Assembly: GCF_036013525.1 (NCBI RefSeq)
Contig: NZ_CP107853.1
Span: forward strand, 8,184,001-8,248,000
DNA length: 64,000 bases
Reading direction: 5' to 3'
Source of the DNA: Nonomuraea sp. NBC_00507
GTDB taxonomy: Bacteria > Actinomycetota > Actinomycetes > Streptosporangiales > Streptosporangiaceae
The translations under genes were made by a program, and so were the position numbers. The notes beneath the pieces were generated by a model. That model worked only from the letters and a program-made list of their open reading frames with translations. It did not search any database and was not told the origin of the DNA. The first letter of the stretch is position 1, and the number at the start of each line of letters is the position of its first letter. Positions 57,336-62,088 of this stretch are shown here, one piece after another.

Positions 57336-57479
57336 GTGACCCCGCCCGGCGGCTCTCTGCTGGAGCTGGGCTGCGGCGTGGGACGGGTGACGGCATGGGG
57401 CGGGTCAGGCCCTTTACACCGTAGATCACGCGATGGCCTCGATCCTCAGGTAATTACTGGAAAATACTGGGACTATTGA
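57336..57479 (+). pseudogene. Remnant of a SAM-dependent methyltransferase
   Basis: A 47-codon frame starting at GTG contains SLLELGCGVGRVTAW, the SAM-binding motif I of a class I methyltransferase with its upstream PPGG. The frame then leaves the family pattern and stops after KYWDY, just before the nuclease-helicase operon. The rest of the enzyme is missing. It is best read as the broken N-terminal end of a lost gene, probably marking an old rearrangement at this site. Confidence 0.6.
57455..57470. repeat. Direct repeat before the nuclease-helicase operon
   Basis: TACTGG occurs at 57455-57460 and 57465-57470, one helical turn apart, about 20-40 bases upstream of the first gene. A TACGCT at 57480-57485, 7 bases before the ATG, could be a -10 box. 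The repeats could bind an activator or repressor. Confidence 0.4.
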
Positions 57480-57492
57480 TACGCTCGCGGCC

Positions 57493-58263
57493 ATGAGTGA
57501 CCGCCTGGACGATTTGGAGCGGCGGATCGACGAGTTGCGGGCCGGTGTGCGCAAGGCCATGCGGGCCAGGGACGGCGCGAAGGCCCGGGTGCTGCGCGCC
57601 GAGCTGCGCACCGCCGAGCGGGACTGGGACGTCCTGGTCAGCGGCGAGCGGCCGGAGGGCGCGCCCGAGCCGGCGCCGCTGGTCACCGTGCGCGAACAGG
57701 TGCACCAGGGGCTGCGGCTGCTCGGGGCGACCGCCCAGCCCCGCCTGATCGTGGCCGTCAGCGAGGCGTTCCTCGGCGGCACGATCCGCAGCACGCAGCT
57801 CACCAGCCTGCGCAGGGACGAGGAGCGTTCGTTCCGTTCCTCCCCGTACGGGCGGCCGTACTACCTGTGCGCGGCGCTGACGGACCGCCTCTCCCCCGCC
57901 CGCGGCCTGCTCACACTCAGCAGCTGGCCGCTGGAGCGGCGTGTGGTCGGGCCCCTCAGTCCCCGCGTCGACTTCCTGACCTGCGCCATCGCGGTGGCTT
58001 CACACGCGGCCGAGGATGAGCGGGCGGCCAGGTTATTGGTGCGGATGGCCAGGAACATCCCCGGCGCCACCAACGGCTCGCTGGCCCCGCCACACCCCGG
58101 GCGGGTGATCGAGGCGGCCCGCGCCGAGCTGGCGGTGCACGCCGAGCGCGACACGCGCGACCGCGCCGAGCTGGCGCGACGCGCCGCAGCGCAGCTGGAT
58201 GACGCCGCCCGCCTGTTCGGCGCCGCTACGCTGAGCACGATCAAGAAGGAGTACGTCACGTGA
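57493..58263 (+). CDS. Nuclease-helicase operon gene 1: coiled-coil protein with possible winged helix
   Basis: A 256-residue protein of no recognised family. Residues 1-48 (LDDLERRIDELRAGVRKAMR and following) form a charged coiled coil. Residues of about 70-120 (VREQVHQGLRLLGATAQPRL, VAVSEAFLGGTIRSTQLTSL) look like a winged-helix DNA-binding unit followed by YYLCAAL. The C-terminal half is helical and Arg/Glu-rich. The ATG at 57493 follows GCTCGCGGCC without a ribosome-binding site, so a leaderless start is possible. The stop overlaps gene 2 as GTGA. It may be the DNA-recognition or scaffold part of the system. Confidence 0.75.
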   Translation: MSDRLDDLERRIDELRAGVRKAMRARDGAKARVLRAELRTAERDWDVLVSGERPEGAPEPAPLVTVREQVHQGLRLLGATAQPRLIVAVSEAFLGGTIRSTQLTSLRRDEERSFRSSPYGRPYYLCAALTDRLSPARGLLTLSSWPLERRVVGPLSPRVDFLTCAIAVASHAAEDERAARLLVRMARNIPGATNGSLAPPHPGRVIEAARAELAVHAERDTRDRAELARRAAAQLDDAARLFGAATLSTIKKEYVT

Positions 58264-59390
58264 GCGGCTTGAAGCGCGAAGGCGACACCCTGCGCCGGCT
58301 GGACGCGTTGCGGGGCACGACGCCGCCGCGGCCGCACGACGCCCGCGCCATCGCGGCCCTGGCCGCCAACCCCGGCTGCACCCGCCGGGCGCTCATGGAC
58401 GGGGCCGGCGTCGACAAGGACGCCGCGGCCCGGCACCTGGGGTTCCCCGCGCCGTTCGGGCAGTCGCCGTTCGCGATCACGCGCGGCAACGTGTTCGAGG
58501 CGCTGGTCAAGGCCGACGGGTGCGCGGAGCTGCTGCGCATGCTGCGCGAGCTGCTCGGCCTGCCGATCGCCGAGGTGGCCTACCACGACGTGGAGAACGT
58601 CGGCGCCCACCTGCGCCACGCTCACACCCGCGCGCTGATCGACCGGGCGGCCCGTGACGAGCAGGACGCGGGCACTCTGTACGACCACCCGCTGCTCACC
58701 CTCCAGATCGCCGGCCACACCGCCTACCTGGAGCCGGATGTGGTGGCCTTCCAGCTGGGCGGCCGCTTCCACATCGTGGAGGTCAAGTCGTTCGCGGTGA
58801 TCGACGGGCAGGCCGACCCGGCGGCGGTCGCGGCGGCCGCCCGGCAGGCGGCCGTCTACGTACTGGCGCTGCGCACGCTGCTGGAGGAGCTGGGCCACGA
58901 CCCGCTGAAGGTCTCCCACGACGTGGTGCTGGTCTGCCCTGAGAACTTCGCCAACCGCCCGGTCGCGACACTGGTCGACGTGCGCAAACAGCTGGCCGTG
59001 CTGAGGCGCCAGCTGACCAGGATGACCACGCTCGACCGGCTTCTCGAGGGGCTGCCCGACGATCTCACGTTCGACCTGCAGCCGGGTGAGGACGGCCGGC
59101 CCACCAGGCCCGTCGCCGAGCTGGCCGACTCACTGCGCACGACGACGGCGCGTTACGCGCCCGACTGCCTGTCCGCCTGCGACCTGTGCTTCTTCTGCCG
59201 TGACGAGGCCCGGCAGGAGGGTGCGTCCGACCAGCTCGGCAGGCAGGTGCGGGACGAGCTGGGCGGGGTCGCGTCGGTGGCGGAGGCGCTGGGCCTGGCC
59301 GACGGGGTCCGGGATCCGCGGGAGGGTCAGGAGGAGATCGCCCGGCTGCTCCGCAACGCCGAACGCCTGCGCAGAGAGTGCCTGGCATGA
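58260..59390 (+). CDS. Nuclease-helicase operon gene 2: Fe-S PD-(D/E)XK nuclease
   Basis: A 376-residue nuclease of the RecB/AddB/Cas4/DNA2 group. Motifs in order: RGNVFEALV at 75-83, active-site Asp160 in YLEPDVVAF, E174-V-K176 in FHIVEVKSF, and QxxxY at 196-200 in RQAAVYVLAL, the signature of this group. Four Cys at 303, 307, 310 and 313 (DCLSACDLCFFC) plus Cys40 near the N-terminus are placed like the cluster ligands of Fe-S exonucleases. AAGGAG lies 8 bases before the GTG, which overlaps gene 1. It should cut single-stranded DNA ends, possibly 5'-3'. Confidence 0.82.
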   Translation: MSGLKREGDTLRRLDALRGTTPPRPHDARAIAALAANPGCTRRALMDGAGVDKDAAARHLGFPAPFGQSPFAITRGNVFEALVKADGCAELLRMLRELLGLPIAEVAYHDVENVGAHLRHAHTRALIDRAARDEQDAGTLYDHPLLTLQIAGHTAYLEPDVVAFQLGGRFHIVEVKSFAVIDGQADPAAVAAAARQAAVYVLALRTLLEELGHDPLKVSHDVVLVCPENFANRPVATLVDVRKQLAVLRRQLTRMTTLDRLLEGLPDDLTFDLQPGEDGRPTRPVAELADSLRTTTARYAPDCLSACDLCFFCRDEARQEGASDQLGRQVRDELGGVASVAEALGLADGVRDPREGQEEIARLLRNAERLRRECLA

Positions 59391-60814
59391 GCCTGCTCAC
59401 CTCGCTCGCCCGGTTGCGCGCCCTGGACGAGGGCATCGCGCAGCCCATCGCGACCGTCCGCCACTGCCATCTGTCGGACCGGCCGATGGTGTTCATCCCG
59501 CTGAAGCTGTCGGGCGAGGCCGCCGCGCCGCTGGCGGCCATGCTCGGCACCGAACGCGACCGGCCGCGCCTGCTCGTGGTGACCCAGCCGCGCAACCGCG
59601 ACCTGCGCTTCGCCTGGGCGGCCGAGCTGGCCGGGGTGCTGCTGCCGTACCTCGAGGGTTTCCTCGCCGACACCGAGACGGTGGAGCGGCGCGGCGCCGA
59701 CCCCTACGAGCGGGCGGTGGACGCGCCGCAGCTCATCGTGCCGAACGCGGCCGGCGTGGCCTTCACCCGGCTCCTCGGGCGCTCCACCCGCTTCCGCCGC
59801 GCCGACGGGCCCTACCCGGTGCCGGACGTGGTGCCGCTGCTGGGCCGGTGGCTGACCTATTTCGGGGAGCGGGCCGCGTACCCGGGCTCGTCGCTCATGA
59901 CGGCCGCGACCGAGGAGCTGGGCCGGCACTGGGCGAGCGGGCAGAGCTCGCTGGAGGACGCCAACCTGGCCGCGTTGCTCGGCTGGATCACCGAGGGGCC
60001 GAGCGAGGCCGCCGAGGACCCGCTGATCTGGCCGCCCGCCGGGCCCGCGACCGACCCGGGGTTCGACGCGGAGGTGCTCGCGCCCGCCATCGACAGCGGG
60101 TCGGCCGAGCGCGTCACCGAGGCGCTGCGCCGCCAGCTGGAGCCCACGTGGCGGCTCATGTGGCAGGCGATCGACCTGCTGGCCGGCCTGGAGGCGGGCG
60201 CGAGCGTGGCCCAGCGGTGGGAGCAGGACCGCGGCTCGTTCAGCGGCATGGCGCAGAGCATCGCCGAAGGCGGGCCGCCGCAGGCCCGCAGGGACGGCGC
60301 GGTCGCGGCCGCGGCCAAACTGGCCCGCATGGAACGCGCCCAGGCGGCGTACGAGGTGCAGCGCGCCTACGACGACCCGCTGATCATGGCCGAACACCGG
60401 CTCACCGGGGAGGCCTTCGCGGGCGAGGTGGTCGAGACCGTCCCGGACAACGTCGAGGGCGAGGGCCGCTCACGCAAGCTCCGCCCGCTGGTGGTGATCA
60501 AAACCGACGATCCGGTACGGCTGCCGCCCGGCGCGTCCCTCGGCACCCCGCAACGCCGCGGCCAGGGCGCCGAGCTGGTGTCCGCGGACGAGGGCCTGAT
60601 CACCGTGAAGATCACCAAAGGGATGGGGCGCGGCAAGACGCCGACCCCCGGCGCCGTGCCCGAGGTCGGCGAGCGCGTCTGCTACACCTCACTCACCGAC
60701 GACTTCCAGGGCTCGCCGACCCTGCCCGACGCGGAGGCCACGCCGTGGACGCACGGCGGCCCGCCCCAGGAGTACACGCCCGACGACGAGGACGCCCAGG
60801 AGGAGTGGTCGTGA
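59387..60814 (+). CDS. Nuclease-helicase operon gene 3: possible helicase accessory domain protein
   Basis: A 475-residue protein with no family that I recognise. The N-terminal 330 residues are mostly helical with a beta start (PRLLVVTQPRNRDLRFAWAA). Residues of about 375-450 are beta-rich: RKLRPLVVIKTDDPVRLPPG, GAELVSADEGLITVKITKGM and PTPGAVPEVGERVCYTSL. This resembles the beta-barrel inserted in the motor of UPF1/DNA2-type helicases, which the next gene lacks. The C-terminus is acidic. It overlaps both neighbours as ATGA and GTGA. This assignment is inference. Confidence 0.6.
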   Translation: MSLLTSLARLRALDEGIAQPIATVRHCHLSDRPMVFIPLKLSGEAAAPLAAMLGTERDRPRLLVVTQPRNRDLRFAWAAELAGVLLPYLEGFLADTETVERRGADPYERAVDAPQLIVPNAAGVAFTRLLGRSTRFRRADGPYPVPDVVPLLGRWLTYFGERAAYPGSSLMTAATEELGRHWASGQSSLEDANLAALLGWITEGPSEAAEDPLIWPPAGPATDPGFDAEVLAPAIDSGSAERVTEALRRQLEPTWRLMWQAIDLLAGLEAGASVAQRWEQDRGSFSGMAQSIAEGGPPQARRDGAVAAAAKLARMERAQAAYEVQRAYDDPLIMAEHRLTGEAFAGEVVETVPDNVEGEGRSRKLRPLVVIKTDDPVRLPPGASLGTPQRRGQGAELVSADEGLITVKITKGMGRGKTPTPGAVPEVGERVCYTSLTDDFQGSPTLPDAEATPWTHGGPPQEYTPDDEDAQEEWS

Positions 60815-62088
60815 CCGGCAGCCCGGAGCAGGTCATCGCGGACGTGCTGGCCGACCTGCCGCGGCACCGGGGCGTGGTCGTCGACTCGCCGCCGGGGGCG
60901 GGCAAGTCCACCCTCGTCGTACGCGCCGCCGCGCACATCGCGGCCGCCGGTGAGCCGCTGATGATCGTCGCCCAGACCAACGAGCAGGTCGACGACCTGG
61001 TGTCCAGGATCTCGGACAAACATCCGCGGCTGACCGTGGGGCGGCTGTCGGCCGGCGGATACGTGCCGCCGCTGCGCCTGCTGGAGCTGCCCGGCGTGCG
61101 GTTCGGCACCAGGATCCAGGACCTCGGCGACCCGGACATCGTCATCGCGACCGCCGACAAGTGGGCGTGGATCGGCGACCGGGTCTGGCCGTGGGCGATC
61201 GTGGACGAGGCCTACCAGATGCGCTCGGACAAGCTGCTGCGGATCGCGGGGCTGTTCGAGCGGGCGTTGTTCGTGGGCGATCCCGGACAGCTGGACCCGT
61301 TCTCGATCGTGGACGGGGACCGGTGGTGGGGACTGTCGTGGGATCCGCTGCAGAGCGCGGTGGCGGTGCTGCTGCGGCACAATCCGGACCTGCCGGTGCA
61401 CCGGCTGCCGGTGTCGTGGCGGCTGCCGGCGTCGGCGGCGCCGGTGGTGTCGCGGGCGTTCTACCCGTTCACCGGGTTCAGGTCGGGGACCGGGCCCGGG
61501 GATCGGCGGCTGGAGCTGGTCACGGAAGGCATGGGGACCGTGCACGACCGGGCGCTGGAGGAGGCCGCCCGGTCGGGGTGGGCGCTGCTGGAGCTGCCGA
61601 ACCGGCACACGGTGCGTACCGACGGGGAGGCCGTGCAGGCGGTGGCGCTGCTGGCCGAGCGGCTGCTGCAACGGGGCGCGGTGGCGAGTTCGGAGCAGGG
61701 CGAGCGGCCGGTGACGGCGGATCGGATCGCCGTGGGGGCCGCGCACCGGGACCAGGTGGCGGCGATCCGGGCGGCGGGGCTGCCGCCGGAGATCACCGTC
61801 GACACCGCGAACCGGCTGCAGGGCCGCGAGTACGACGTGACGATCGTGCTGCACCCGCTGTCCGGGCGGCGTGACGCGACGGCCTTCCACCTGGAGTCGG
61901 GGCGGCTGTGCGTGCTGGCCTCGCGGCACCGGCACGCCTGTGTGGTGGTGGCCCGGGCGGGCATCGCCGAGCTGCTGGACGCCCACCCGTCGGCGGAGCC
62001 GGTGCAGCTGGGCGTGCCGGTGAAGTTCCCGGACGGGTGGGAGGCCAACCAGTCGGTGCTGGAGCATCTGTCCCGCCACCGCGTCTAG
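60811..62088 (+). CDS. Nuclease-helicase operon gene 4: SF1 (UPF1/DNA2-like) helicase
   Basis: A 425-residue superfamily 1 helicase motor. Walker A is SPPGAGKST (26-34), Walker B WAIVDEAYQM with D132-E133, motif III GDPGQLDP (156-163), motif IV VSWRLP (201-206), motif V DTANRLQGREYDVTIV (331-346), and motif VI near SRHRHACVVV (371-380). The 1A and 2A RecA-like domains are present, but the beta-barrel normally inserted after Walker A in UPF1-like enzymes is not seen. The GTG overlaps gene 3 as GTGA. It should unwind nucleic acid for the nuclease of gene 2. Confidence 0.85.
   Translation: MTGSPEQVIADVLADLPRHRGVVVDSPPGAGKSTLVVRAAAHIAAAGEPLMIVAQTNEQVDDLVSRISDKHPRLTVGRLSAGGYVPPLRLLELPGVRFGTRIQDLGDPDIVIATADKWAWIGDRVWPWAIVDEAYQMRSDKLLRIAGLFERALFVGDPGQLDPFSIVDGDRWWGLSWDPLQSAVAVLLRHNPDLPVHRLPVSWRLPASAAPVVSRAFYPFTGFRSGTGPGDRRLELVTEGMGTVHDRALEEAARSGWALLELPNRHTVRTDGEAVQAVALLAERLLQRGAVASSEQGERPVTADRIAVGAAHRDQVAAIRAAGLPPEITVDTANRLQGREYDVTIVLHPLSGRRDATAFHLESGRLCVLASRHRHACVVVARAGIAELLDAHPSAEPVQLGVPVKFPDGWEANQSVLEHLSRHRV

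Follow-up and report, generated by a model that had tools for sequence, protein, structure and literature searches.

We describe a four-gene operon of Nonomuraea sp. NBC_00507, carried at positions 57493-62088 on the + strand of a 64,000-nucleotide stretch of DNA (hereafter the window: bases 8184001-8248000 of contig C1, in a genome of 12.9 Mb). According to our hypothesis genes 2-4 encode one ATP-driven iron-sulphur (Fe-S) helicase-nuclease – spread over three chains and active in DNA-end processing – whose accessory copies work with SbcCD and commonly with Wadjet; we place the probability of this reading at roughly 0.58. It is built on gene order, predicted folds, conserved residues and linkage, each of which was observed. 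A preliminary description of the operon, which had compared it to a split DNA2 system, is partly supported by the data below.

Gene order and conservation

Gene 1 (256 amino acids) occupies positions 57493-58263, gene 2 (376 amino acids) 58260-59390, gene 3 (475 amino acids) 59387-60814 and gene 4 (425 amino acids) 60811-62088, all on the + strand, and the three junctions each share four bases (GTGA, ATGA, GTGA). Coordinates, strand and overlaps, as first described, were all borne out on reading of the open reading frames. Nuclease, gene 3 and helicase are separate open reading frames and not one polypeptide: together with the predicted folds this bears out the earlier view of a DNA2-like enzyme whose nuclease and motor reside on different chains.

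Comparisons were based on 204 loci, each at most 21 kb long, of which 200 (leaning towards the window's own family) were fetched via gene 2 and four, all from plasmids, via gene 4; two of the latter hold the set and two gene 4 only. Genes 2 and 3 are both present in 201 loci, which correspond to 186 distinct loci when compared over the final 900 bases of gene 2. The two genes are adjacent in 199 of the 200 loci fetched via gene 2 (the remaining one has a fused form, see below), gene 4 falls inside the fetched segment in 183/186 distinct loci, and all four genes are found in 145. Recurrence of the gene order in other genomes, as envisaged in the preliminary description, is evident: order and strand are identical in 145/145 distinct four-gene loci. 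Four-base overlaps are found at the three junctions in 92, 69 and 124 of these loci, counts that lean upward because genes were called by a simple script using third-position GC (GC3) that prefers starts overlapping the preceding gene. Shared order, strand and overlaps exceed chance. The grouping of genes 1 and 3 with nuclease and motor held for gene 3, which stands beside gene 2 in 199/200 loci, and failed in part for gene 1, which is found in only 146/186 distinct loci.

Three distinct loci are without gene 4: L211, where the contig ends, and L257 and L258, from one genus in which gene 4 lies apart. All eight genomes of this genus that were searched keep one full-length gene 4, approximately 17-55 kb from gene 3 in seven and on another contig in the eighth. 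In L224 and L056 some 2 kb of other sequence lies between genes 3 and 4, with a gene of 780 amino acids called there in L224.

All four genes have a ratio of nonsynonymous to synonymous substitution (dN/dS) of less than 0.45 when compared with five relatives (gene 1: 0.26-0.44; gene 2: 0.14-0.31; gene 3: 0.15-0.28; gene 4: 0.035-0.16), gene 4 being the most conserved. Gene 2 was found in 109/200 genomes of the window's order (its own genome counted), mostly as a single copy; at least 25 further genomes of the genus were sampled, and 24 of them have it. In a class sample 71/394 genomes carry gene 2, one of them in the fused form only; gene 3 was found in 41/298 genomes of another order. Given that 91/200 genomes of the window's order show no match, the set is not essential. 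Searches of viral contigs and phages with gene 2 yielded no confirmed relative.

A predicted nuclease with an invariant cysteine set

The predicted model of gene 2 has the RecB/Cas4-type fold of PD-(D/E)XK nucleases, with structural likeness to Cas4, AddB, Exo5 and MGME1. The residues singled out in the preliminary description – D160, E174-x-K176, Q196/Y200 and C303-x3-C307-x2-C310-x2-C313 – are all present. The nuclease core D160 ... E174-V-K176 (58737-58787, +) has all three residues intact in 169 of 200 alignment rows, a set that holds some duplicates and one misaligned row from the fused form.

A metal cluster made of the four downstream cysteines was rejected, since C310 is cysteine in just 28/82 homologues, whereas C40, C303, C307 and C313 are each cysteine in 82/82. 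Across the 200 rows C40 (codon at 58377-58379, +) is found in 198, the other two being gaps, and each cysteine of C303-x3-C307-x5-C313 (59166-59198, +) in 200. The likely metal ligands are therefore C40 plus the C-x3-C-x5-C motif, and these four residues would form a probable Fe-S site.

The acids of the core are replaced in several groups of loci: E174 in, for example, L093, L094 and L105-L111, and D160 in, for example, L067, L081, L084-L087, L090, L091, L098, L100, L103, L188 and L213. Cysteines and K176 are kept throughout, and such clades may possess a dead nuclease and an intact motor.

A motor probably divided between genes 3 and 4

Gene 4 (60811-62088, +) is the superfamily 1 (SF1) motor it was first taken to be: the Pfam models AAA_11, AAA_12, AAA_30 and AAA_19 all match above their cut-offs, and its profile retrieves IGHMBP2, DNA2 and UPF1 from the PDB. 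It corresponds to the RecA1-RecA2 core of UPF1/IGHMBP2/DNA2-like helicases and holds little beyond these two domains; Walker residue K32 and D132-E133 are invariant (196/196 rows).

In the predicted model of gene 3 (59387-60814, +) an RNase H-like N-terminal part is joined to a helicase stalk and 1B barrel. Residues 31-324 (59477-60358, +) resemble in fold the exonuclease region that family B DNA polymerases possess, while stalk and barrel make up C-terminal residues 303-453; residues 337-437 (60395-60697, +) fold like the 1B barrel of IGHMBP2, the best match, ahead of SETX, Sen1 and DNA2. Foldseek alone, run on this model, returned nothing at E 0.001 or better. Genes 3 and 4 would jointly constitute one complete UPF1/DNA2-type motor. 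The RNase H-like part is apparently without its acid set and is probably a non-catalytic scaffold. A role for gene 3 in specificity, as once suggested, is not supported, because its C-terminus resembles the barrel and stalk of a helicase.

Two of the plasmid loci fetched via gene 4, L032 (Rhodococcus) and L033 (Mycobacterium), encode an SF1 helicase resembling gene 4 (identity 36% and 33%, respectively), preceded by genes for a MoxR ATPase, a VWA protein and a product of about 390 amino acids. Both were examined as further copies of the set and rejected: they are MoxR/VWA operons from which genes 1-3 are absent.

SbcCD and Wadjet adjoin accessory copies

SbcCD (Mre11-Rad50) adjoins 11 of the 186 distinct loci and lies 8-141 bases from the set in ten of them; the window's own copy adjoins neither SbcCD nor Wadjet. 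On two Streptomyces plasmids SbcC-SbcD stand on one flank of the set and the Wadjet genes JetABCD on the other (on one plasmid, L034, SbcC and SbcD are fragments only). A tree built from genes 2-4 of 72 loci shows the linkage at four separate positions, a pattern due to gain or loss. SbcCD is upstream and divergent in one large clade; another clade has it downstream of gene 4 and co-directional, 8 and 16 bases past that gene in L208 and L223.

A prediction set beforehand concerned genomes with two copies of the set: second copies were expected to carry SbcCD. Five such genomes were found and one copy was examined in each of four (G664 was left out); SbcCD was directly downstream in 4/4. Gene 1 is weak (33 bits) in one of these second copies, L280. 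Beside single copies of another family, viewed in segments of 11.5 kb, SbcCD was absent in 2/2. When SbcD proteins were compared with that of L208 in seven genomes with a linked copy, six gave 41-45% for the linked SbcD versus 29-34% for the cell's other SbcD; in G689 the linked SbcD (32%) is no closer to that of L208 than the other (35%). The window's genome (G000) and G050, both without a linked copy, also carry two SbcD.

Wadjet genes are present in 8/11 SbcCD-linked loci versus 0/193 others (Fisher p 2.5e-12), a comparison in which the search seeds came from the linked loci themselves and which, like all Fisher values given here, ignores common descent. The systems are of type I (L031, L034, L104, L243), type II (L230, L260, L261) and type III (L241). 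Two of the second copies have JetC on their contig at a distance of a few kb from SbcC: a type II JetC, split in two, in G689 and a type I JetC in G761. With the three JetC models applied, G669 and G800 gave no match. The best reading of these data is that the set was recruited repeatedly beside Mre11-Rad50 and Wadjet, and the linkage suggests a part in destroying DNA that is broken or foreign. In the window's genome a type II JetC (G000:C1:8739678-8744039, one in-frame TGA counted) lies about 0.5 Mb from the operon; Wadjet thus also exists without linkage.

The preliminary description had raised the possibility of enrichment in defence islands. Such enrichment is seen for the SbcCD-linked minority: at least 18 of 65 neighbours at the 11 linked loci (SbcCD excluded; counted from the best 25 of 75 families) match PADLOC. 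It is lower around core copies, where at 11 loci, hand-picked one per branch, 6 of 87 neighbours match at 1e-15 if same-name models fall on one protein, and at most 10 (Fisher p 0.0006 with 6, 0.019 with 10). Among individual loci, L113 has the set beside Cas_GSU0053, Cas_GSU0054, Cas3 and Cas4-Cas1 (a single locus, the others not having been scanned individually for cas genes). Accessory copies adjoin Hma genes in L233 (and, by reading without a scan, L240) and PDC-S37/Hhe-like and GajB-like genes in L112. In L096 and L097 a second copy of the set stands beside a 551-amino-acid protein of one cluster; in L096 this is a DUF6119 protein, and a large UPF1-type helicase is also present.

A fused two-gene form

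A fused protein of about 890 amino acids occurs in Nocardioides, Micromonospora, Actinoplanes, Geodermatophilus and others; at E 0.001 or better its family counts 707 proteins, of which 120 are among the matches listed. The N-terminus is related to gene 2 (E 2e-7, with a profile probability of 93.6%), and its C21 aligns with C40. D146, D168-A-K170 and C280-x2-C283-x5-C289 are invariant in 18/18 aligned rows, and C21 is nearly so. Profile comparison gave no sequence link between the C-terminal part and gene 3, and the family as a whole showed no significant similarity to gene 3 or gene 1; the fused protein matched no PADLOC or NCBIfam model.

A gene-4-like helicase adjoins the fused gene in six of seven loci examined, the seventh (L278) being without a full-length fused gene. 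The two-gene form – fused nuclease plus helicase – is seen in L262 and L273-L277. In L274 the fused gene is flanked on one side by ZacABC-type genes and on the other by a type III-like methyltransferase, which is accompanied by a weaker match to type III restriction (PADLOC); by reading, the same order is apparent in L276 and, as far as the fetched segment reaches, in L275. In L262 and L273 the neighbours are type I/IIG restriction-methylation genes. A literature search for ZacA/B/C returned unrelated word matches only.

Gene 1 and upstream elements

Gene 1 (57493-58263, +) combines a coiled-coil-like N-terminal helix with a conserved region (L-R-R-D-E-E at residues 106-111) and belongs to no known family. 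It was not found in chromosomal Streptomyces-type copies and several others. Since it is present in only 146/186 distinct loci, it is not essential to the core, and in the machine proposed here it would be an optional adaptor. In some Streptomyces-type and Micromonosporaceae-type loci the gene upstream of gene 2 was considered as a diverged gene 1 and rejected: a few of these genes read as a PAP2-like membrane protein or a lipase-like protein, labels assigned by reading the sequences without a model search.

Two elements lie 5' of gene 1 (57413-57470, +): a near-palindrome TTTAC-N3-GTAGA (57413-57426) and a direct repeat TACTGG-N4-TACTGG (57455-57470). Both are kept in most of 16 aligned Nonomuraea-type loci (at least two of which are duplicates), a few rows being without one or the other, and their sequence suggests an operator or promoter. 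Scans for sigma-70 promoters and terminators gave nothing. SOS control was rejected: a LexA-like pattern of actinobacteria has six matches with up to two mismatches in the window versus 1.85 expected, and none is 5' of the operon.

Proposed mechanism and alternative explanations

We suggest that the RecA motor of gene 4, with the stalk and 1B barrel that it lacks supplied by the C-terminus of gene 3, would pull DNA towards the iron-staple nuclease of gene 2. The machine would load on DNA ends, unwind them and cut the unwound strand. At accessory copies the adjoining SbcCD would open or clear (blocked) ends, and Wadjet, by cutting small circles, would yield linear DNA for the set: acting together, Wadjet, SbcCD and the set would cut invading DNA, circular as well as linear, and destroy it. 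According to a published review, JetABCD/Wadjet cuts small circular DNA while linear DNA escapes, and DNA ends are recognised by Rad50 complexes (PMC10586767); on that account the activities would be complementary. The window's copy, a chromosomal resident, would perform the same end processing with SbcCD encoded elsewhere, and for this copy end processing for repair and a general barrier are about equally possible.

A bolder version, which we put forward tentatively and at somewhat less than even odds, is that Wadjet has an unrecognised actinobacterial partner: a six-gene machine of adjoining Mre11-Rad50, the three-chain DNA2-like helicase-nuclease and gene 1. Wadjet would sense circles and cut them, and the machine would degrade both the linear products and invading linear DNA. 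It would be a bacterial counterpart of MRN-DNA2, perhaps assembled several times, turned to immunity.

The set might instead serve housekeeping repair, as a chromosomal end-resection or fork-repair enzyme of large actinobacteria whose defence-linked copies are secondary recruitments. This would account for its presence in 24 of at least 25 other genomes of the genus and in 109/200 of the order, mostly in one copy, for the few PADLOC matches around core copies (6, at most 10, of 87) and for the failure to confirm relatives in viral contigs or phages when searching with gene 2. We nevertheless consider it less likely, because 91/200 genomes of the order show no match, neighbours vary between genera, and accessory and fused forms are repeatedly linked to Wadjet, CRISPR, Hma and restriction genes. 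The helicase-nuclease reading also has to be set against two others. Were the motor a helicase acting on RNA or R-loops, its scaffold derived from a nuclease, in a manner comparable to UPF1, SMUBP2 and Senataxin, the order of barrel matches (IGHMBP2 best, then SETX, Sen1 and DNA2) and the strong conservation of gene 4 in the face of nuclease acids lost in some clades would follow. But DNA2 has the same barrel and motor, the nuclease residues are intact in 169/200 rows, and the neighbours are DNA-cutting systems and SbcCD, all of which makes such a role improbable. That the set merely hitch-hikes in defence islands with no working tie to SbcCD or Wadjet is more improbable still: although most copies have neither as a neighbour, SbcCD linkage arises at four separate places in the tree and in two arrangements, SbcCD lies 8 and 16 bases past gene 4 in two loci, and the expectation for second copies held in 4/4.

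If the proposed helicase-nuclease exists, unnamed conserved families of many actinobacterial genomes (109/200 in the order sample, 71/394 in the class sample) acquire a function, and there is a divided DNA2-type enzyme whose nuclease, barrel and motor can be separated. Bacteria would also possess the Mre11-Rad50/DNA2 resection pair in an immune form. For Wadjet, the question posed is what destroys the linear product once the circle has been cut.

Comparison with known systems

The earlier statement that the set was not recognised as a described system is supported: genes 1-3 fall below the cut-offs of Pfam, NCBIfam and PADLOC 2.0.0, and PDB sequence searches with their profiles gave no credible match. 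No description was found in open papers, as represented by listings and the beginnings of abstracts (subscription papers and newer defence models lay outside this scope). Similarity to defence helicases is weak and partial – gene 4 matches MkoA of Mokosh at 34.9 bits and the PLuB helicase at 36.1 bits, and genes 1-3 have no match there. SbcCD and Wadjet JetABCD adjoin accessory copies and are not part of the window's set.

Cas4, AddB and Exo5 have a 1+3 cysteine arrangement, and gene 2 shares its nuclease fold with these proteins and MGME1; unlike Cas4, however, it has no Pfam Cas_Cas4 match. AddAB, RecBCD and AdnAB differ in that a UvrD-like SF1A helicase is fused to the nuclease, whereas gene 4 is UPF1-like and a separate chain. 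TM0106-type proteins (TIGR03491) are comparable in their domain order – nuclease, RNase H-like, SF1 helicase – but gene 2 does not match TIGR03491, and the window's genome has 0 matches at E 0.001. IGHMBP2/SMUBP2, UPF1 and SETX have the same motor and 1B barrel; here barrel and motor are on different chains and a nuclease partner is added.

The remaining comparison is with DNA2, which has 1+3 cysteines and works beside Mre11-Rad50. In contrast to DNA2 the present set is bacterial, comprises three chains plus gene 1, has an RNase H-like region in between and shows weak sequence similarity; as it is not a single chain, we do not file it as DNA2. What the two share is a RecB-type nuclease, a 1B barrel with stalk and a UPF1-like RecA core, in the same order, and, as far as the alignments indicate, invariant cysteines, one placed before the nuclease core and three after it. 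Judged by the predicted models, genes 2-4 look like one DNA2-type helicase-nuclease in three chains.

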